From Clostridia bacterium (GTDB lineage Bacteria > Bacillota > Clostridia > Oscillospirales > CAG-272): a stretch of DNA of 48,153 nucleotides. The notes beneath the pieces are model-generated. The model made no database searches. It saw only the letters and a list, made by a program, of their open reading frames with translations, and was not told the DNA's origin. The stretch's first letter is position 1. Each line of letters starts with the position of its first letter. The stretch lies in contig JAFWXZ010000064.1 in the NCBI GenBank assembly GCA_017522795.1, positions 1-48,153 of the forward strand. The letters run 5' to 3'. The position numbers were made by a program, and so were the translations under genes. This document shows, piece by piece, positions 33,553 through 43,169 of the stretch.

Positions 33553-35091
33553 TCAAAGCAGTGGCGCGAAAAGCCTTATTGCGTTCTTGGTTATCCACTC
33601 GCCGAGGGTGAGGCGGGAGCGCTTATCGTCCACGCGCTCGGACTCGGTGACGGTTTTCAGGAACTCGTCCTTTGCCACCAGGACGGTGGGGGATGCGTAC
33701 ATCCATACCGCGTTCTCAAAGTGGTGGGCGAGGCTTCGGTAATCAAAGTTTATCGTGCCGATGACCGCGTACTTATCGTCGCAGACAAAGGTTTTCTCGT
33801 GGATAAATCCGGGGATAAACTCATATATCTTCACTCCCGCCTTCATCAGATAGGGATAGGAGCTTTTGGTCATTATCTTAACCTTCTTTTTATCGGGTAT
33901 ACCGGGGGTGATGATACGCACGTCAACACCGCGCAGGGCGGCATTACAAAGCGCCTGAGTCAACTCGTAGTCGATAATAAGATATGGTGTGGTTATGTAA
34001 ACGTAGTTTCGCGCCTGGTTGATAAGATTAAGAAAGGCGTTCTTTCCAACGGGTCGCTCGTAGATGGGCGCGGGGCCAGAGCCGAAGGGCAGATAATAGC
34101 CGCCGTCGCTGAATTTACAGGGCTCTACCGCGGAGAAATACCTGTCGTAATCGCTGATAGTACCGCAGGTGAAGTCCCAGCCCGAGAGAAAATGCTTCAT
34201 AAGTCCGCCGACCGCGTCACCCGACAGCTTTATTCCTCCGTCCTTCCAATAGCCGAATCGCTCCAGCTTATTGATATACTCGTCGGCGATATTCACACCG
34301 CCCGTATAGCCCACCTTGCCGTCGATAATGCATATCTTTCGGTGGTCGCGGTTGTTGTGGATAGAGGACATCTGGGGGCTAACTCTATTGAAGCGATACG
34401 CCTTTATGCCCTCGCGGCGCAGGGTTATCTCATAGTAGGGCGGCAGAGTGCGCATACAGCCGAAGTCGTCGAACAGAAGTCTGACCTCAACGCCCTCCTT
34501 CACCTTTTCCACAAGGATATCGTGTATCTCGTCCCAAAGCTCGCCAAAGGCGATTATGAAATACTCGAGGAAAATAAAGCTCTTCGCCTCGCGAAGCTCG
34601 CTTATCATCGACTTAAAGAACGCCTCGCCCGTGGGGAAGAACACCGAGGATGAAGCCGAATATACCTCCGCCAGCACGTCGTCGTTCATTATTGCCCTCG
34701 CCTTTCCTGCTGCGAGGGGACTGCGGCGGCGCATCATATTAAAGGATTCGGCTCCACCGCGGCGCGCCTTTATCTTGGTGAAAATGGTGTCAAGCAGGCG
34801 TATCTCCTTTTTCGTCATATTACGGCGATAAAAGATGAGATAAAGCAGAGTGCCGAACAGCGGCATAAGCAGAACGACGGTGATCCAGGTCACCTTATAC
34901 TCGGGGTTGGCATCGCGATTGATTATGGAAACCACCACCGCAACGTCAATAAGCAGAGTAAGTCCAAAGAACAGGTAAGAAACGATAGACGCCGCCGCGA
35001 TAACCAGTCCCATAAGCAGTATTTCGGCTAAAATGGTAAAGGCGCAGATCGCGTATCTTGAAAACAAAAGACTCCAAAGCTTCTTTTTCAT
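33553..35091 (-). CDS. cls: cardiolipin synthase (phospholipase D family)
   Basis: A 512-aa membrane enzyme that condenses two phosphatidylglycerols into cardiolipin and glycerol. Two or three N-terminal membrane helices (about residues 10-85) precede two PLD domains with HKD motifs: NNRDHRKICIIDGKVGYTGG (about 250) and HEKTFVCDDKYAVIGTINFD (about 430). GGAGG precedes the ATG. It is the last gene after the DUF1538 transporter and P-II-like genes, with a gap of 27 bases, so probably the same transcript. Size and order of domains match the family. Confidence 0.93.
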   Translation of the reverse strand: MKKKLWSLLFSRYAICAFTILAEILLMGLVIAAASIVSYLFFGLTLLIDVAVVVSIINRDANPEYKVTWITVVLLMPLFGTLLYLIFYRRNMTKKEIRLLDTIFTKIKARRGGAESFNMMRRRSPLAAGKARAIMNDDVLAEVYSASSSVFFPTGEAFFKSMISELREAKSFIFLEYFIIAFGELWDEIHDILVEKVKEGVEVRLLFDDFGCMRTLPPYYEITLRREGIKAYRFNRVSPQMSSIHNNRDHRKICIIDGKVGYTGGVNIADEYINKLERFGYWKDGGIKLSGDAVGGLMKHFLSGWDFTCGTISDYDRYFSAVEPCKFSDGGYYLPFGSGPAPIYERPVGKNAFLNLINQARNYVYITTPYLIIDYELTQALCNAALRGVDVRIITPGIPDKKKVKIMTKSSYPYLMKAGVKIYEFIPGFIHEKTFVCDDKYAVIGTINFDYRSLAHHFENAVWMYASPTVLVAKDEFLKTVTESERVDDKRSRLTLGEWITKNAIRLFAPLL

Positions 35092-35118
35092 TCTATAAAC
35101 CTCCTCTTTTTTTGACTA

Positions 35119-35862
35119 TTAACGGTTCTCCTCGCCGTCTACGTAGTCCTCAAAGCGACCGACACCCACAAGGTCGTCAACGGGAAGCGAGAAGATAACT
35201 GCGCCTCCCTCGGTCTTAAGACCTGCCGCATCGCGAACAGCCTCCATAATTCTGGTCTTATATTCAAGGGTGGTAAGGAAGAACACGCTGTCGGTCTCCC
35301 TGTTTATACCCGTACCGATAGCCTGCTCCGCGCCCTCGTTATTAATGCTCTTGGTGTGGAAAACGGTTGCGCCTGTCGCGCCTGCGGCTCTCGCCGCCTC
35401 GATGGCGATATCGGTGTACTTTGTATTTACAACGGCAATTACAAGCTCGTGCATGATCTCTTTTTCCTTTTTCTTCTTTGAAATGGGGACGCGGCGGCCT
35501 GTGGATCTGTCGGTCTTGTCAGCGCCAGACAGAATTGCGCCGTTGATAATGCTTGATATTCCCGAGAGGGGAACGGTAAAGGCGATACCTCTGCCGACGA
35601 GATAAAGCTTCAGCCCGTGGCCTATGGCGTTAAGGATATTATGCTCGGCGGACTCGGGGATAAGCGACATTGTAATACGCTTCTCCACCTCGCCAAGACC
35701 GAAATAATTCATATAGGCGTTTCTCGCAGTTCCGTGGCCGACGCCCGAGAAATGCACCACAGTGGCGCAATCGTTTACTATCTCGGTAAGGCGGCTCTCG
35801 TCCTCCTTGCTGATTATACTGATGAGGAGCTTTACGCGGTTATTTTCTTGTTTTCTTGCCAC
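35119..35862 (-). CDS. tandem P-II-like (GlnB superfamily) regulatory protein
   Basis: A 247-aa cytosolic protein that appears to be two P-II-type ferredoxin-like domains in tandem (about residues 10-120 and 130-240). Segments are KLLISIISKEDESRLTEIV in the first and ELVIAVVNTKYTDIAIEAARAAGATGATVFHT in the second, followed by VFFLTTLEYKTRIMEAVRDAAG. P-II proteins sense nucleotides or metabolites and bind membrane transporters. I chose GTG 35862, with AGGAGG 9 bases upstream. This site lies inside the Glu-rich 3' end of the DUF1538 gene, which it overlaps by 23 bases, so the two are coupled. A role in gating the DUF1538 transporter is an inference. Confidence 0.82.
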   Translation of the reverse strand: MARKQENNRVKLLISIISKEDESRLTEIVNDCATVVHFSGVGHGTARNAYMNYFGLGEVEKRITMSLIPESAEHNILNAIGHGLKLYLVGRGIAFTVPLSGISSIINGAILSGADKTDRSTGRRVPISKKKKEKEIMHELVIAVVNTKYTDIAIEAARAAGATGATVFHTKSINNEGAEQAIGTGINRETDSVFFLTTLEYKTRIMEAVRDAAGLKTEGGAVIFSLPVDDLVGVGRFEDYVDGEENR

Positions 35863-37417
35863 TTGCCTCTTCCTCCTCAATGTATTTTGTATAAACGTTG
35901 CTTCTGCGGACGTCGCGGTCGTACTCGTAGTCGATAAAGCTCTCGCTTGCGGATACGAACTTGCGCGCTCTGTCCTCGGTCTTTACCTTATAGAAGAAGC
36001 CGCAAAGCTGAATTGCGATAATAGGTGCCATCGCCACGAATGCAACGCAGCCAAAGGCGTCGGTCATAACGTTTCCGCCCAGCCGATTGCAGGCTCCCAT
36101 ACAGAGCGGGAGAACGAAGGCGGACATCATCGTACCGCTGGCAACTCCGCCCGAGTCGAAGGAAATACCCACGAATATCTTGGGCACGAAGAAGCTCAGT
36201 GTCAGGGCGATGATATAACCGGGGATCAGAAACCAGAGGATGTTCACACCCGTGATGATACGGAGTGCGGCAAGGCCCAGCGCCGCCGACACACCGATAG
36301 ATAGGCCGAGGCCGGTTGTCTTACCCGAAATCGCGCCCGCGGACATAGTTTCAACCAGCTTATTAAGCACGTAGACCGAGGGCTCTGCCTTAACGATAAA
36401 GTAGCCGAGCAGCATACTGATAGGCACGAGCAGCCAACCGCCGCCAATGGCAGCGAGGCTTTGTCCTATGGCAGTACCCGTGGGCAAGAATCCAACGTTC
36501 GCACCCGTTAAGAATACCGCAAGTCCGACGAGGACGTATACGATACCCACAGCCATACGGATAAGCTGGCCGCGGTTAAACGCGTGGGTGAGAAGCTGGA
36601 AGAGAATTGCGAAAACTATAATGGGAGCGAGGGCGACAAGTACGTCAAGCGCGTGCTCGCCGAGGCCGTGAAGGAATCTAAGCACTCCCTCTCTCGTATC
36701 GGGAACGGGCTCGTTTACCGTAGGAATATAGGTACCCTCAACCTTCATAACGATGCCGAGCACCAGCACGGAAATAATAGGTCCGATGGAGCAAAGTCCG
36801 GTGATACCGAAGGAGTCACCGCGGTCGTCACCCGACATCTTTGACATAGACACACCCGCGCCGATAGACATAATGAAGGGCACGGTCATAGGTCCCGTGG
36901 TCACTCCGCCCGAGTCGAAGGCGAGGCAGAGAAAGCTCTCGTCCACGAAGAAGGCAAGGACGAACGCCACGGCGTAGAAGCCTATCATTATGGCGGTCAG
37001 ATTCCAGTTAAAGACTATACGCATAACCGCGATAGCAAGGAATATTCCCACACCCACCGAAACGGTGAGAATAAGTATCATATTTTCCATACCGCTGACC
37101 TGCTCGGCGAGGAGCTGAAGGTCGGGCTCGGATATGGTGACGAGTATACCGATTATAAAGCTGATAAAGGCGATAAGCCATATTTTTTTACTGCCGCCAA
37201 CAGTAGAACCGATCTTCGAGCCGAGGGGCTGCATTGACATCTCCGCGCCCGCGGTGAAAAGGCTCATACCAAAGACCAGACATACTATTCCCACTAAAAA
37301 GAGGAACATATCTCCCGTGGATATGGGCACTACTGTTATACTCAGCCCCAGGACTATCAGAGCTATAGGCAAGACCGATTTTAAGGACTCGGTAAGCTTG
37401 TCTTTAATTAAATTCAA
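35840..37417 (-). CDS. DUF1538 family membrane transporter, fused two-repeat form
   Basis: A 525-aa integral membrane protein of about 12 helices. Two homologous halves each carry an FDSGGV motif: AFDSGGVTTGPMTVPF in the first and SFDSGGVASGTMMSAF in the second. This is the DUF1538 signature. Related two-gene systems have been described as cation/proton antiporters (UmpAB), as I recall; the substrate here is not established. The start is a TTG (37417) with GAGG 10 bases upstream. It is followed by the P-II-like gene, the common partner of this family. A promoter candidate lies at 37451-37480. Confidence 0.85.
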   Translation of the reverse strand: MNLIKDKLTESLKSVLPIALIVLGLSITVVPISTGDMFLFLVGIVCLVFGMSLFTAGAEMSMQPLGSKIGSTVGGSKKIWLIAFISFIIGILVTISEPDLQLLAEQVSGMENMILILTVSVGVGIFLAIAVMRIVFNWNLTAIMIGFYAVAFVLAFFVDESFLCLAFDSGGVTTGPMTVPFIMSIGAGVSMSKMSGDDRGDSFGITGLCSIGPIISVLVLGIVMKVEGTYIPTVNEPVPDTREGVLRFLHGLGEHALDVLVALAPIIVFAILFQLLTHAFNRGQLIRMAVGIVYVLVGLAVFLTGANVGFLPTGTAIGQSLAAIGGGWLLVPISMLLGYFIVKAEPSVYVLNKLVETMSAGAISGKTTGLGLSIGVSAALGLAALRIITGVNILWFLIPGYIIALTLSFFVPKIFVGISFDSGGVASGTMMSAFVLPLCMGACNRLGGNVMTDAFGCVAFVAMAPIIAIQLCGFFYKVKTEDRARKFVSASESFIDYEYDRDVRRSNVYTKYIEEEEASGKKTRK

Positions 37418-37450
37418 CTTATCTTTTCCTCTTGTTTTGTTTTTAAATAA

Positions 37451-37480
37451 ATGTTATCACACCCGTCTGCGCCTTTTCAA
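37451..37480 (-). promoter_or_regulatory. candidate promoter of the DUF1538-PII-cls unit
   Basis: Minus strand TTGAAA (37480-37475), 18-base spacer, TAACAT (37456-37451). Confidence 0.55.
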
Positions 37481-37507
37481 GCGGCGAGCGAAAAGTTTAA
37501 GCAAAAT

Positions 37508-40096
37508 TTATGCTTTATTCATATAACTGTCGATTTTTTCTCGAATCAGCTTCAGGGTGTCGAGTATCTCCGCGTAGAACTCTCTTGCGCTTACGCGAAG
37601 TCCGCCCGAGCCGAGAATAACCAGCTGCTCCTGGTAATCCGAGGTGACCACTCTTACGCTGTGATGCTCTGCGATCTGGTAGGTGGTGCGCTCGATATAG
37701 GCGTCGGCGGTCTGCTTCTCACGGGTGTAGACCACGGTGACGGGGCCGATCTCCTCCACGCTTCCCTCTCCCCCACGGCGCTTATATGCGTCGAAGGCGA
37801 TGATAACGCGGCACTTGCGGAAGGCAGCGTAGTCGCACATCAGTCGGGTAAGAACGTCGCGGGCTCTGGCAATATCGCTCTCGGCGGCGCGGCGCAGGTC
37901 GTCTATGGCAAAGAGGAAATTATATCCGTCGATAATGATATACTCCTCGCCACGAGGCTTCAGCTTTTTCGGCCGCTCCTTTTTCTCGGGGGTGGTGGCG
38001 GCGTTTTCCTGTCGCTCGCTGACGGTGCGCTTCTTTATCTTGCCGTAGGTGCTTTCAAAAATACGCATCAGCTCCTTGTCCTCCTCCACCGTGCCGCGAT
38101 AATCCAGCTTGCGAGGCACTCTGACCGTCTCGGTCTGCTCGGCAAGCTCGCGGGACACGCCCGTAGGAGTAATATGCATCAGCGCATCCGCCTCATCCCA
38201 GGGGACAGCGTAGCCCGAGCCGCCCTTGCAGAACACGCTGCCCGCAGGGTTGCGCTCGTCAAGCTCGGGGGAGTAGGCTCGCCTTGCCACTACCTCGGCG
38301 GTGTTGTGAGCGGGCTTATATGGACCGACGGACAGGGCAATTCTTCCCTCACCGCGAGTATATGCGCGCAGCTCGCCCGCATATGAGCGCATGGTGGCAA
38401 CGGGGCAATTTCCCTCAAGGATAGCAGTGCTTTCGTTTATCTGGGGGGGTGCGCTTACGCCGTACATTGAGGTTATATCGTTCATCAGCCTGCCGAGATT
38501 TTCCCTCGGTAGCTCGATGCGGAAATCAAAGGTTGGCTCAAGCAGCACCGATTTTGCCTTCATAAGTCCCTGCCTTACGGCGCGATAGGTTGCCTGGCGG
38601 AAGTCGCCGCCCTCGGTGTGCTTTAAATGCGCCTTGCCTGCGGTCAGGGTTATGCGCACGTCGGTAAGAGGGGCGCGGGTCAAGACTCCTCTATGTACTC
38701 TTTCTTCAAGATGGGTTATTATAAGCCTCTGCCAATTAAGGCTCAGGGTATCGGTGGCGCATTCGGTGGCGGTGACTACTCCGCTGCCCTCGGGAAGCGG
38801 CTCGATGCGCAGATGCACCTCGGCATAGTGACGAAGCGGCTCAAAATGTCCTGCTCCGTATACCTCCTCTGCCACCGTTTCCTTATATAAAATCTCGCCC
38901 TCGTCAAAGTCCACCGAAAGACCGAATCGGTCAAGGATCACCCGCTTCAGCACCTCGATCTGTATCTCGCCCATAAGGCGCACCCGTATCTCGTGGGTGG
39001 CGGGCTCGTAGGTCATAGCAAGGCTCGGGTCCTCCTCGGCAAGCGCCATAAGGCGCATATAGGCTTCGTAGGGGTTTGCATCCCTCGGCAAAATAAGACG
39101 GTAGTCGAGGACGGGAGAGAGCGTCTGAGTGTCACTCACCTCAAAGCCGAGTCCCATACCCACCTTGGTGGCGGTTGGACCGAGGACGGCGCAGACCGTG
39201 CCTGCGGGCGCGGAGGAAAGGCTCTTATATTTATCACCCGAATAAAGACGTATTTCTTCAATTTTCTCGCGGACGGTCTCGCCCGAGGGGGTGATGATCT
39301 CCAGAATATCCTTTGGCTTTAAGCTGCCGCCCGTGATCTTCATATAGCTGAGTCTCTTGCCCTGGCTGTCGCGGCTGATCTTATACACGCGCGCGCCAAA
39401 GAGACTGTCGGAATAATTGCGCGATAGGGTGTATTTATCAATGCCGAGAAGCAATTCCTCAACACCTCGCATCTTCAGCGCAGAGCCAAAGAAGCAGGGG
39501 AAGATACGCCGCTTCATAATGGCACGGCATATGCCCTCAAGACCTACCTGCTCTGTGGCGAAAAACTCCTCCATAAGATGCTCGTCGGCAGAGGCGCATG
39601 CCTCAAAAAAGTCGGTAGTATTATCCTCGGTAAAGTCCACGCAGCCGACGGATAGGTTGCAGCGAAGCTCCTCAAGGAGTGCTGCACGGCGGCGATCGGA
39701 TATATCAAGCTTATTTACGAAAATAAAGGTGGGAATACCCCTTGAAGCAAGCAGATGCCAGAGGGTTTTGGTATGTGCGCTGACACCGTCGGTGGCGCTG
39801 ACAAGGAGTATTGCGTAATCCTGAACCGACAGGGCGCGCTCCGCCTCGCAGGAGAAGTCGATATGCCCGGGGGTGTCGATAAGGGTGATCGTGGTATCGC
39901 CAAATTCAAGGATAGCCTGCTTTGAGAAAATGGTAATTCCTCTCTCCCGCTCCAGCGAGTGGGTGTCGAGAAAGGCGTCCCGCTTATCCACCCTGCCAAG
40001 CCTTGACAGATTGCCCGATGAGTAGAGCAGTCCCTCGGAAAGAGTGGTCTTGCCCGCGTCAACGTGAGCTAAAATTCCAACCGTCAATCGCTTCAT
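37508..40096 (-). CDS. Tet(M)-like ribosomal GTPase fused to a Rae1/YacP-type NYN endonuclease domain
   Basis: An 862-aa two-part protein. Residues 1 to about 650 follow the EF-G/Tet(M) plan: AHVDAGKT (10-17), RGIT (52-55), DTPGH (74-78), NKLD (128-131), and domains II-V with LLEPTFDFRIELPRENLGRLM in the place of the Tet(M) domain IV/V junction. The Tet(M) loop SPVSTPADF reads HLKHTEGGDF here, so tetracycline resistance is doubtful. A charged K/E/P linker leads to residues 719-862, which resemble Bacillus Rae1 (YacP): IIIDGYNFLF, VIIAFDAYK, YTREKQTADAYIE, VTSDYQEQ and GALR-like GGLRVSAREF. The putative metal-binding Asp723, Asp769, Asp798 and Asp820 are kept. Rae1 cuts mRNA in the ribosomal A site. 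GGAGAG precedes the ATG. It is cotranscribed behind the GNAT gene and the two-component system. Confidence 0.9.
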   Translation of the reverse strand: MKRLTVGILAHVDAGKTTLSEGLLYSSGNLSRLGRVDKRDAFLDTHSLERERGITIFSKQAILEFGDTTITLIDTPGHIDFSCEAERALSVQDYAILLVSATDGVSAHTKTLWHLLASRGIPTFIFVNKLDISDRRRAALLEELRCNLSVGCVDFTEDNTTDFFEACASADEHLMEEFFATEQVGLEGICRAIMKRRIFPCFFGSALKMRGVEELLLGIDKYTLSRNYSDSLFGARVYKISRDSQGKRLSYMKITGGSLKPKDILEIITPSGETVREKIEEIRLYSGDKYKSLSSAPAGTVCAVLGPTATKVGMGLGFEVSDTQTLSPVLDYRLILPRDANPYEAYMRLMALAEEDPSLAMTYEPATHEIRVRLMGEIQIEVLKRVILDRFGLSVDFDEGEILYKETVAEEVYGAGHFEPLRHYAEVHLRIEPLPEGSGVVTATECATDTLSLNWQRLIITHLEERVHRGVLTRAPLTDVRITLTAGKAHLKHTEGGDFRQATYRAVRQGLMKAKSVLLEPTFDFRIELPRENLGRLMNDITSMYGVSAPPQINESTAILEGNCPVATMRSYAGELRAYTRGEGRIALSVGPYKPAHNTAEVVARRAYSPELDERNPAGSVFCKGGSGYAVPWDEADALMHITPTGVSRELAEQTETVRVPRKLDYRGTVEEDKELMRIFESTYGKIKKRTVSERQENAATTPEKKERPKKLKPRGEEYIIIDGYNFLFAIDDLRRAAESDIARARDVLTRLMCDYAAFRKCRVIIAFDAYKRRGGEGSVEEIGPVTVVYTREKQTADAYIERTTYQIAEHHSVRVVTSDYQEQLVILGSGGLRVSAREFYAEILDTLKLIREKIDSYMNKA

Positions 40097-40142
40097 ATAA
40101 CGCTCTCCTTCCTCGAAAATCTGCCAATATGTTAATATTTGT

Positions 40143-41045
40143 TTACAGTTTTAGGCTAAATTTGATTATTTCACCCGAGATCTCTCCCGAGCCAAAGACC
40201 TTCTCCGTCATTTTGACGGACGGTATATTCTCCACCGATACGGTGGCGTAGAGTTTTATCAGCCCCATACGGCGAGCTATGTCGACGAGAGCCGACAACG
40301 CGCGGGTGGCATAGCCTGCGCCGCGGTACTCGGGCAAAAGCCTTATGGCGCACTCGCAGCCGCCCAGCAGATCAAAGCGGTATAGCGCCGCCTCGCCGGC
40401 AAATTTCCCACCGATCCTCACCGCCAGCGACATAAGCACGCCGCGTCTTATCTCCCTCTCGTTTTCCTCGCGAAAGTAGGCATCGGTTGGATTTGGCATA
40501 TCAAGGCTATAGTCGTAGCCCCAATATTTATTGGTGTCCTTATCCTTGCAGAGTTCGGCATAGGCGCGGTCATCATCTGCGGTTATGGCGTCAAGGAGCA
40601 TATCCGAAAGCTCCACCGATATGGGCGCGTCAAGCAGAGCCGCCTCGCTCATCACCCTTACGGTATAGCTCTGTCGGTCATCATCCTCGGCATCAATATT
40701 CGCATGGCGAAACAGTCCTGCGACGGTGCCAAGCTCCTCGGCGGGAACGTCGGTCAGTACGAGGGGGATCTCCTCCTTTACCGCATAGGCGCGAAGGCTG
40801 TCGATAGCGCGGATGCCGTCTGCCCCGTCGGACAGGGCTATGGGACAGATAAACTTATACTCTCCGTCAAAGAGCCTGACGAGCAGGCAGCCGTCGGATG
40901 CGGCAAGAGCCACCTCGCCCTCCTCCTCTATAAGAGAGTCGATTATTTCATTAAGGTATTCAAAGTCCGCCTCGGGCAGACTATTTGAAAGGAGAGAGAG
41001 ACTCTCGTCTCTCTCCTCCTCGGTTAAGATTTTAAAGGAAAGCAT
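40143..41045 (-). CDS. GNAT family acetyltransferase
   Basis: A 300-aa protein. The C-terminal GNAT domain (about residues 150-300) has the acetyl-CoA loop region RLLPEYRGAGYATRAL at about 238-253 and ends with the SVENIPSVKMTEKVFGSG strand-helix typical of RimJ/RimL-like members. The N-terminal 140 residues are acidic and have no domain I can name. The acceptor is unknown. The ATG is preceded by CAGGAG in the 3' end of the kinase gene, 2 bases after its stop. The Tet(M)-Rae1 fusion follows 46 bases later. Acetylation of a ribosomal protein or an antibiotic are both conceivable given the neighbours, but unproven. Confidence 0.85.
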   Translation of the reverse strand: MLSFKILTEEERDESLSLLSNSLPEADFEYLNEIIDSLIEEEGEVALAASDGCLLVRLFDGEYKFICPIALSDGADGIRAIDSLRAYAVKEEIPLVLTDVPAEELGTVAGLFRHANIDAEDDDRQSYTVRVMSEAALLDAPISVELSDMLLDAITADDDRAYAELCKDKDTNKYWGYDYSLDMPNPTDAYFREENEREIRRGVLMSLAVRIGGKFAGEAALYRFDLLGGCECAIRLLPEYRGAGYATRALSALVDIARRMGLIKLYATVSVENIPSVKMTEKVFGSGEISGEIIKFSLKL

Positions 41046-41047
41046 TT

Positions 41048-42487
41048 TTACTCCTGAATAGTACCGTCCGCCAACTCGGCATCAAGAAGGTAGGTCTGGC
41101 GGAAATCGAGGCTAAGCCTTGTGACGAAGAAATCCTCATCCTCAATGCCATACTCAAATTTATCCGCCACGAGAGAGGCAAGGCGGGCGCAGGTCTTAAG
41201 ACCGATGCCGTTGCTCTCCGCGCCCTCGGTGTCGGTGCGAATCTTATTTTTACATTCAAAGACCATTCGGTTTTTACCCACCTCGATGTTCAGTATAATG
41301 GGGTGGCTAATATCTGCGTATTTTCTCAGGTTAGAGAAAATATTGTCTATAATTCGCATAAGGTTCTGCGCGTCGGTGACCACCACTGCGCCATCCTCTA
41401 TTGCTTCGCCCGAATGCTCGGATAAGATCTCATATCCCATCTCGCGCATAAGAACGATATGCTCTGAGAGCAGCTGATCAAAGAGGGTCATAGCGTCGTA
41501 TTCCTCCAGGGTGATCATACCCTTGGTATCGCCAAAGGCGAGAGAATACTTGAACATATCGTCGGATAGCTGCTTCAGTCGCAGGGCGGTGTTCTCGGTG
41601 GAGGCAATATAGCTCTGCATGATCTCGTCGCACTCATGCTCCTTCATCATCTCGATATATCCCATAAGAACGGTAAGAGGCGTTCTGATATCGTGGGAAA
41701 TAGAGGTGATAAGCTCGGTGTTTGCCTGCCTTGCTTCCTGCTCACTCTTGATATGGTCGAGCATTCTTCGTCTCATTCGCTCAACGTTTGAGGACAGTCT
41801 TGCGATCTCGTCAACGCCGTCGCTGATTATCTCATAGTCCATGTCCATCTCGGATACGATGGTGACGTCACTCTCAAATCGCTTTATACGCACGATGATA
41901 ACTCGCACGTAGTTTACGATAACGAGAATGAACACGATCGCCGCTACACCGATGCTGACCGTGCCGAAGGTGGAGTAATAAAATTCCTCGCCGTATTCGG
42001 ACAGAGCAACGGTAATGCTGCTGTCGGCAAGCTCGATGCGGTAGAATCCGCCCGCGGTAGCATCGTCTATCAGCTCCTCGCTTTTAAGGCTGTCGTCGAT
42101 ACGCGCGCCCGGTAACTCTATGGCTCTGTAGCTGGCATCAGGCGCATCCACGCTCGGCGGCATAACGGTGGGTATGGCATCCGCCTTATAATAAACGAGC
42201 AAAAAGACGTAAGGGTTAGCCCTCACCCACTCGGAGAGAGTGTCAACGGTGGTAAGAGTGACCTCATTTTCATCGATGAACATCTCAAGGCTGGAGAGAT
42301 ACTCCTCTCGCCGTTCTGCCTTCTTCTCGTCTGTGATATACAGCTCGTTTACTCCGACGACGGAGGAAATGAATAGCAGGAAGAAGGAGACAACGGCAAA
42401 GATCAGTCCTACCGCAATGCTTCGGAACAGGCCGAAGTATAGCGAGCGCGATCTTCGTTTGCTCGGTATTTCCTTAAAGTCAATCAA
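41048..42487 (-). CDS. sensor histidine kinase
   Basis: A 479-aa membrane sensor. It has two membrane helices (about residues 20-45 and 175-197) around an extracytoplasmic sensing domain of about 130 residues, a HAMP linker (to about 255), an HisKA dimerisation helix with the phospho-acceptor in SISHDIRTPLTVLMGYIE, and an HATPase_c domain with NIFSNLRKYA and the GIGLKTC G-box. It pairs with the upstream response regulator. I start it at TTG 42487 (AAAGGG 8 bases upstream), which overlaps the regulator's end by 8 bases. The longer frame to 42541 has no better start. Confidence 0.92.
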   Translation of the reverse strand: MIDFKEIPSKRRSRSLYFGLFRSIAVGLIFAVVSFFLLFISSVVGVNELYITDEKKAERREEYLSSLEMFIDENEVTLTTVDTLSEWVRANPYVFLLVYYKADAIPTVMPPSVDAPDASYRAIELPGARIDDSLKSEELIDDATAGGFYRIELADSSITVALSEYGEEFYYSTFGTVSIGVAAIVFILVIVNYVRVIIVRIKRFESDVTIVSEMDMDYEIISDGVDEIARLSSNVERMRRRMLDHIKSEQEARQANTELITSISHDIRTPLTVLMGYIEMMKEHECDEIMQSYIASTENTALRLKQLSDDMFKYSLAFGDTKGMITLEEYDAMTLFDQLLSEHIVLMREMGYEILSEHSGEAIEDGAVVVTDAQNLMRIIDNIFSNLRKYADISHPIILNIEVGKNRMVFECKNKIRTDTEGAESNGIGLKTCARLASLVADKFEYGIEDEDFFVTRLSLDFRQTYLLDAELADGTIQE

Positions 42488-43169
42488 TTTGGTATCCCTT
42501 TCCCCATACGGTACGGATGATCTTTGGAGATGCGGGATCATCCTCTAACTTTCTGCGCAGATTAAGGATATGCACGGTTATGGTGTTGCCCGAGGATGAG
42601 AGAGATATCTCGTTCCACACGCTCTCGTAAAGATCCTTGGGGCTTACGGGCTTGCCGCGGTTCTTGGCAAGGTAGATAAGCATCTCGATCTCCTTGTCGC
42701 TAAGGTCAATGGTGACACCGTTCTTCGTTACCTCACGTCTATCGGGAATAAGCAGAACTCCGCCCCAAAGACGTATCACTGAGCCGCCGTGACCTCTCAC
42801 GCTGTAATTGTTGTATCTGCGGGTAAGCGCCTCAACCTTCATAAGAAGCTCGCGTGAGGAGAATGGCTTGACGAGGTAATCGTCACCGCCGCCCGAGTAG
42901 GCAGCCGCCTTGTCGCTCTCAAGAGATTTTGCAGTGAGGAAAAGCACGGGTATGGTAGAGAACTCGCGGATCTTCTTCGTCGCCTCGATGCCGCTCATTA
43001 CGGGCATCATTATATCCATAACACAAAGGTCGATGGCTGGATCCTCAAGCAGAGCCTCGACCGCCTTCGCGCCGTCGGACGCCTCAACGATCTCATAGCC
43101 CGCATTCTCAAGCAAAAGCCTCAAGACCTTTCTTATTTCTATTTCGTCGTCTACAATAAGTATCTTCAT
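42480..43169 (-). CDS. OmpR/PhoB-type response regulator
   Basis: A 229-aa DNA-binding regulator. The receiver domain has the acidic pair DDE (7-9), phospho-acceptor Asp in LCVMDIMMPVMSG (about 55), Thr and Lys in FLTAKS and LVKPFSS. The C-terminal winged helix has SDKEIEMLIYLAKNRGKPVS and the recognition segment NTITVHILNLRRKLEDDP, ending GKGYQID. The sequence style resembles VanR-like regulators of clostridia (weak inference). It is the first gene of the operon with kinase, GNAT and Tet(M)-Rae1 fusion. Confidence 0.94.
   Translation of the reverse strand: MKILIVDDEIEIRKVLRLLLENAGYEIVEASDGAKAVEALLEDPAIDLCVMDIMMPVMSGIEATKKIREFSTIPVLFLTAKSLESDKAAAYSGGGDDYLVKPFSSRELLMKVEALTRRYNNYSVRGHGGSVIRLWGGVLLIPDRREVTKNGVTIDLSDKEIEMLIYLAKNRGKPVSPKDLYESVWNEISLSSSGNTITVHILNLRRKLEDDPASPKIIRTVWGKGYQID

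Follow-up and report, generated by a model that had tools for sequence, protein, structure and literature searches.

The window analysed here is a whole stretch of 48,153 nucleotides from a Clostridia bacterium of the Oscillospirales lineage CAG-272 (assembly GCA_017522795.1, contig JAFWXZ010000064.1, positions 1 to 48,153), and its reverse strand carries a gene in which a translational GTPase of the Tet/EF-G type is fused to a Rae1-type NYN nuclease (Table 1). A sequence-only reading of this DNA had proposed a fusion of a Tet(M)/EF-G-like GTPase with a Rae1-type domain, and the Pfam search bore this out: the EF-G/Tet-type domain series spans residues 3-598 of the 862-residue protein, and the search for an NYN domain in the C-terminal ~145 residues found NYN_YacP at 720-859 with 138 bits (cut-off 24.6, E 3e-40). 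The same reading had named a Rae1-type nuclease with conserved acidic residues, and we found that D723, D769, D798 and D820 of the fusion align with D7, D53, D81 and D104 of Rae1, and that E802 aligns with the likewise conserved E85; these five Rae1 residues we take to be the catalytic acidic residues. Among the fusions D723, D769, D798 and E802 are kept in 69 of 69, and D820 in 68 of 69. The NYN half also matched the solved YacP of Bacillus subtilis (5mq8, 5mq9) with an E value of 7e-20 across 133 residues.

Table 1. Position of the fusion gene and its parts in the window; residue numbers are those of the fusion protein
Feature	Position	Strand	Basis
Whole fusion coding sequence, 862 aa, translational GTPase and NYN/Rae1-type nuclease	37508..40096	-	ATG start; orthologues
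G domain (GTP_EFTU), residues 3-223; G1 AHVDAGKT, G2 RGIT, G3 DTPGH (H78), G4 NKLD	39428..40090	-	Pfam
Domain II (EF-G_D2), residues 235-313	39158..39394	-	Pfam, 26.5 bits, slightly below the 27-bit cut-off
Domain III (EFG_III), residues 349-397	38906..39052	-	Pfam
Domain IV (EFG_IV), residues 401-515	38552..38896	-	Pfam
Tip loop of domain IV, HLKHTEGGDF, residues 490-499	38600..38629	-	Alignment with Tet(M) and EF-G
Domain V (EFG_C), residues 517-598	38303..38548	-	Pfam
Post-domain-V module, residues 608-641, SVFC..G.G..V.W......H type	38174..38275	-	Alignment
Linker motif DKELxxIFExTYG, residues 673-685	38042..38080	-	Alignment of 69 fusions
NYN_YacP (Rae1-type) nuclease domain, residues 720-859; D723, D769, D798, E802, D820	37520..37939	-	Pfam, structure match

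The GTPase half appears equally complete, with G1, G3 and G4 (NKxD) motifs that are intact in 68 of 68 relatives. Behind domain V lies an SVFC-type module that the fusion has in common with unfused sister GTPases and that is absent from the aligned Tet and EF-G proteins. The linker that follows (642-717, ~75 residues) is mostly variable except for the motif DKELxxIFExTYG, in which L676 and G685 are kept in 69 of 69 fusions. A zinc site in the post-domain-V module was considered and dropped; C596, a cysteine in 65 of 69 fusions, is alanine in the source protein. PHROGs gave one match, which covers residues 1-641 and belongs to a translation elongation factor family, and no family was matched in a PADLOC search of the fusion. 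The same NYN domain lies in one long open frame in many genomes, so the fusion is not a chance or assembly join. Against seven relatives of the genus, the GTPase had a nonsynonymous rate of 0.13-0.28 and the NYN domain one of 0.09-0.41, with a synonymous rate of at least 1.0 in both halves, indicating that both are under purifying selection. The fusion of a Tet/EF-G-type GTPase with a Rae1-type NYN domain is thus a real gene.

We then compared the GTPase with the tetracycline-protection proteins. The fusion scored 391 bits with the NCBIfam profile tet_protect (cut-off 775) and 270 bits with tet_protect_M_W (cut-off 1100), and two other fusions as well as an unfused protein of Ligilactobacillus salivarius fell similarly far below these cut-offs; the curated EF-G cut-off of 659 bits was likewise not reached (244 bits). 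At the tip of domain IV, the Tet(M) loop SPVSTPADF, which the sequence-only reading had correctly described as not conserved, gives way to HLKHTEGGDF, so that Leu-Lys-His stands in place of the Tet residues Ser-Pro-Val. K492-H493 align with Pro509-Val510 of Tet(M), and every one of the 69 fusions has Lys-His there; according to PMC7456112 it is this Pro509 at the tip that overlaps bound tetracycline. H490 aligns with the tip His of EF-G and with Tyr507 of Tet(M) and is His in 68 of 69 fusions, while the whole KHTEGGDF is kept in 63 of 68. Two proteins of relatives that do carry the Tet tip (YYSPVSTPADF) share 28% identity with the GTPase of the fusion. Scores far below the curated cut-offs, the Lys-His pair and the EF-G-like tip His suggest that, by sequence, this GTPase is not a tetracycline-protection protein and would belong to a non-Tet branch of the EF-G/Tet group; the earlier suspicion that "tetracycline resistance protein" is probably a misleading label is supported by the low Tet scores and the non-Tet tip. 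A further group of EF-G/Tet-like GTPases in genomes of the phylum (L180-L184) has the tip HTHPxDF (HTHPLDF in four of five) and 30-35% identity.

A resistance role has nevertheless been suggested for such proteins. Atkinson 2015 (PMC4342817) described Tet proteins of ten Clostridiales species that acquired a YacP-like NYN RNase domain and suggested RNase-based resistance, so that the fusion would be a Tet protection protein with an RNase added as a new mechanism. This proposal in print agrees with the best single-sequence matches in the PDB, which are TetO (248 bits) and TetM (238 bits), and with the label of one of two RefSeq-annotated fusions examined, which is placed in the TetM/TetW/TetO/TetS family. 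It agrees poorly with the profile scores and with the invariant Lys-His at the position of Pro509, and a family profile built from the fusions matched EF-G (390 bits) above TetO (384 bits). Moreover, only 2 of 72,556 plasmid records match more than 80% of the protein, and there is no clear attenuator signal upstream (see below). We therefore regard an added resistance mechanism as very unlikely. The two annotated fusions examined (L278:3980-6781 and L279:4001-6589) are that of Agathobacter rectalis, which bears the TetM/TetW/TetO/TetS tetracycline resistance label, and that of Monoglobus, which is labelled a translation factor GTPase family protein.

Sixty genomes, the source genome included, were searched for NYN_YacP and for a close GTPase. 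The results showed that NYN_YacP occurred in 22 of them, with one match each, and that 21 of the 22 matches lay in a single open frame of at least 864 aa; in G016 the fusion gene is interrupted by a stop. A close GTPase (at least 50% identity) was found in exactly the same 22 genomes, and the best GTPase matches of the others were weaker (E 3e-81 or worse, with at most 37% identity among the full-length matches listed). Within the source genus the fusion is present in 17 of 37 genomes, and the other 20, several of the genomes being incomplete, have neither an NYN domain nor a close GTPase. A survey of the fusion's frequency in Clostridia, as the sequence-only reading had suggested, found it to be frequent: NYN_YacP matched in 250 of 393 genomes of the class, and among the 150 places listed 80 lie in fusion-length frames (at least 700 aa), 65 in frames of at most 220 aa and 5 are ambiguous. 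The families among these places comprise 16 with the fused form only, 17 with the stand-alone form only and 4 with both kinds. A scan of public contigs returned at least 570 relatives; the 80 kept carry clostridial or uncultured Bacillota/Firmicutes titles, among them Faecalibacterium, Gemmiger, Oscillibacter, Intestinimonas, Ruminococcus and Blautia. From these 80 we recovered 68 full-length fusions, the other 12 being cut at contig ends, having shorter frames or failing the frame or P-loop filter.

A mobile or phage origin was also considered and was rejected on the few plasmid records and on a scan of IMG/VR, in which none of the 57 pattern matches is a relative. In a phage collection 12 records matched the C-terminal part, two of them across more than 80% of that part. 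These two (MT835563.1 and MT835514.1) are unannotated faecal records titled "Bacteriophage sp.", with a linker-NYN match over 92% and 100% of the query, respectively; since the IMG/VR scan gave no relatives, they may be bacterial contigs.

In the source genome (78% complete) the fusion holds the only NYN_YacP match. A separate EF-G-like gene lies on another contig (C5) and scores 632 bits, slightly below the EF-G cut-off given above, and the frame lengths of the further GTPase matches fit RF3, TypA and LepA. The relation between the fused and the stand-alone form was examined in a sample of 398 genomes of the phylum, with the source genome among them and a match threshold of E 0.001. Each of the 28 genomes with the fused form had exactly one NYN_YacP match, and a match was present in 191 of the remaining 370; apart from the source, 22 of the fused genomes were listed with the NYN domain in a long frame, G060 was checked singly and four were assigned by the frame length of the GTPase. 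In the class sample, 245 of the 250 positive genomes likewise had one match. Among the five with several, three contain an additional fragment that stays below the cut-off. The other two are G339, the only one in which fusion and stand-alone gene are both intact (the latter beside rlmB), and G425, in which the fusion is accompanied by a broken yacP remnant in two frames directly after rlmB. The rarity of coexistence and this broken remnant lead us to conclude that the fused form appears to replace stand-alone Rae1, a replacement that is well supported. Separate genes, both forms together, fusion with a broken remnant and fusion only make up a series in which it can be tested.

One fusion genome (G354) has a weak match beside rlmB (E 0.004), which was not counted as a remnant; beside rlmB in six further fusion genomes and in the source genome, no NYN match was better than E 0.6. 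At E 1e-60 no GTPase match was obtained in four of five stand-alone genomes taken from mixed families. In the fifth (G264; L267 and L268) the GTPase is unfused and the NYN protein is encoded separately, on a contig other than that of rlmB. This NYN clusters with the fused domains, and the split pair may represent a fission or a state before fusion. Twelve Clostridioides difficile plasmid records matched the NYN search. The one that was opened (L280, NZ_CP149721.1 45824-52231) is filed as a plasmid and carries cysS, thyX, rlmB, a stand-alone NYN gene, sigH, tuf, secE and nusG, an order that looks like a chromosomal stretch.

The neighbourhood of the stand-alone gene bears on another explanation, that the GTPase brings the NYN domain to ribosomes or pre-ribosomes for maturation of rRNA or tRNA and not for cutting mRNA. 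Among 15 genomes examined, six have a stand-alone yacP, and in four of these it directly adjoins rlmB, the gene of a 23S rRNA methyltransferase; the annotated record L280 shows the same arrangement. Some EF-G relatives assist ribosome assembly, which is also in its favour. A role of YacP-like NYN domains in rRNA and tRNA maturation had been proposed earlier, as cited in PMC4342817. B. subtilis Rae1, the member that has been studied, targets mRNA in the A site according to PMC12320835 and PMC6613710, which argues against a processing factor, and a core maturation step would fit poorly with patchy presence within one genus. We consider this explanation quite unlikely.

Other Bacillota contain GTPases with 39-47% identity to that of the fusion and with no NYN domain, some of them annotated as translation factor GTPase family protein, for example on the megaplasmid of L. 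salivarius (L171). The SVFC-type module was found by a strict pattern in 28 of 32 such relatives and was recognisable by eye in the other four. Of the 32, 28 have an H.[EKQ]HT.GGD-type tip, three (L. salivarius and two others) have SNVHTVGGDF and one has HVEYTSGGDF. We built a GTPase tree of 89 sequences (48 of 82 fusions, 32 unfused proteins, 8 Tet or Tet-like proteins and one EF-G outgroup), from which four unfused loci missed by the filter (L173, L205, L217, L219) were left out. The fusions formed one group (0.862), with weak support inside it, and the group also holds the three SNVHTVGGDF proteins. These three (L171, L199, L200) are unfused and branch among the fusions, and two of them come from genomes of ~2 Mb with no NYN_YacP match; a secondary loss of the NYN domain is possible, and the loss of the nuclease may have gone along with that of the usual tip residues.

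Several observations suggest that the two halves work as one unit. Their identities correlate across 69 fusions (r 0.71; 0 of 2000 permutations), and in the NYN tree the 82 fused domains form a group that includes one of the 33 stand-alone NYNs and has two root-side edges of 0.81 and 0.98. From the catalytic Asp on, the tail measures 162-166 residues in 33 of 33 stand-alone NYN proteins, whereas among the 82 fusions it has at most 142 residues in 41, 143-161 in 29 and at least 162 in 12, with 140 in the source protein. In B. subtilis, the rae1 suppressor R166P, which lies in this C-terminal tail, was read as a loss of function (PMC6613710). Our own reading is that docking moved from the NYN tail to the GTPase in many members. 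Alternatively, the halves might share a polypeptide for co-expression or tethering alone, the GTPase being EF-G-like or drug-clearing and the nuclease acting independently like stand-alone Rae1. The long and mostly variable linker would suit such an arrangement, as would the existence of unfused sister GTPases, of which two belong to genomes that gave no NYN_YacP match, and of G264 with its unfused GTPase and separate NYN of the fused type. A conserved motif inside the linker speaks against it, and so do the half of the fused NYNs that lack much of the tail kept by stand-alone Rae1 and the changed tip of the three NYN-less proteins among the fusions. On balance we find simple tethering unlikely.

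In the window, the genes at 33553-43169 all run in one direction and encode a response regulator, a histidine kinase, a GNAT protein, the fusion, a DUF1538 protein, a weak P-II match (below the cut-off) and a PLD-type (cardiolipin-synthase-like) protein. The kinase, GNAT and DUF1538 neighbours recur within part of the source genus, and clustering of 490 neighbouring open reading frames from 68 loci gave no family present in more than five loci that could be an operon partner. Terminator-like hairpins were found upstream in 31 of 66 fusion regions, compared with 6 of 66 after mononucleotide shuffling. The 65 loci with data were also set against neighbouring genes as controls, and hairpins were not clearly in excess at loci with a divergent upstream gene (9/27 against 49/182). 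Where the upstream gene is co-directional the counts were 21/38 against 71/236 (19/27 against 55/157 for gaps of at least 60 nt), an excess that terminators of the preceding gene would explain. The source gene has a 46-nt upstream gap, in which no terminator-like hairpin was found. An antibiotic-responsive attenuator is thus unsupported, given the lack of a clear excess at divergent loci; a leader is not supported overall and is possible at some loci.

In the source genome, then, a GTPase of the non-Tet branch carries the only Rae1-type nuclease found there as its C-terminal domain. By analogy with the known factors, we see about an even chance that the fusion is a GTP-driven factor of mRNA surveillance that takes this nuclease to the ribosomal A site. 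The GTP-bound GTPase would bind ribosomes with an empty or blocked A site, and its domain IV, like that of EF-G and Tet(M), would extend to the decoding centre. From its ~75-residue linker the NYN domain would cut mRNA within the A site or next to it. The cut would probably come after domain IV moves or leaves, because the site can hardly accommodate both domain IV and docked Rae1. On GTP hydrolysis the factor would come off, and the cleaved mRNA would be left to decay or rescue. Like B. subtilis Rae1, the fusion would serve in the surveillance or turnover of mRNA, and its GTPase half would provide for recruitment and timing. As a more tentative proposal, it is possible that an EF-G-like GTPase captured Rae1 and so became a GTP-clocked A-site nuclease that cuts the mRNA of stalled ribosomes, has displaced the free enzyme in many Clostridia and is partly catalogued as tetracycline resistance. 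The sequence-only reading had gone in the same direction: its fusion, nuclease type and doubt about the label stand, and A-site delivery, cleavage and rescue keep the rank of deductions from homology. No proposal of A-site mRNA cleavage by the fusion was found in open-access literature listings, which is weak evidence of absence.

Several points weigh against an A-site surveillance factor. We know of no biochemistry on any member of the fusion family, and at the A site domain IV and docked Rae1 would be in competition. The exclusion of stand-alone Rae1 is partly phylogenetic; since most families have a single kind throughout, the genome counts exceed the number of independent events. The gene is patchy within its genus and therefore probably dispensable. 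The full-length tail kept in 12 of 82 fusions means that tail loss is not general. In a second class (probably Bacilli, 299 genomes), NYN_YacP was matched in 37 of 39 genomes with the unfused GTPase and in 287 of 299 overall, showing no association, and two genomes (G1015 and G1086) carry the unfused GTPase with no NYN_YacP match at all, so this GTPase can act without the nuclease. Co-occurrence of the unfused GTPase with stand-alone Rae1 had been considered as support and was set aside as uninformative at such a high background.

If the proposed A-site role is correct, the fusion would be a translational GTPase with its own mRNA nuclease, giving a direct handle on the recruitment and timing of bacterial A-site mRNA cleavage. 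Many of the titled records with the fusion are gut Clostridia and some members are labelled as tetracycline resistance, so resistome counts may wrongly include it.

Compared with Tet(M) and Tet(O), the fusion has the same domain order and intact GTPase motifs, and differs in having no Tet tip, an extra module behind domain V and the NYN domain. The unfused Bacillota GTPases such as L171 resemble it in the SVFC-type module and mostly in the tip, and differ in having no NYN domain. With Rae1/YacP of B. subtilis (5mq8, 5mq9) it shares the NYN domain and the active-site residues over the 133 aligned residues; Rae1 is a separate protein, whereas the fused NYN sits behind a GTPase and ends ~24 residues shorter than its stand-alone relatives. 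The architecture was in print in 2015 and is frequent in Clostridia, so its novelty is lower than the sequence-only reading implied. The fusions of Atkinson 2015 have the same architecture and, as far as the text tells, the same host group, and the source protein is a further member. That paper gave ten species and a possible drug resistance; the present analysis adds a form frequent in the class, with a conserved alternative tip motif in place of the Tet tip, unfused sister GTPases and near-exclusion of stand-alone Rae1.

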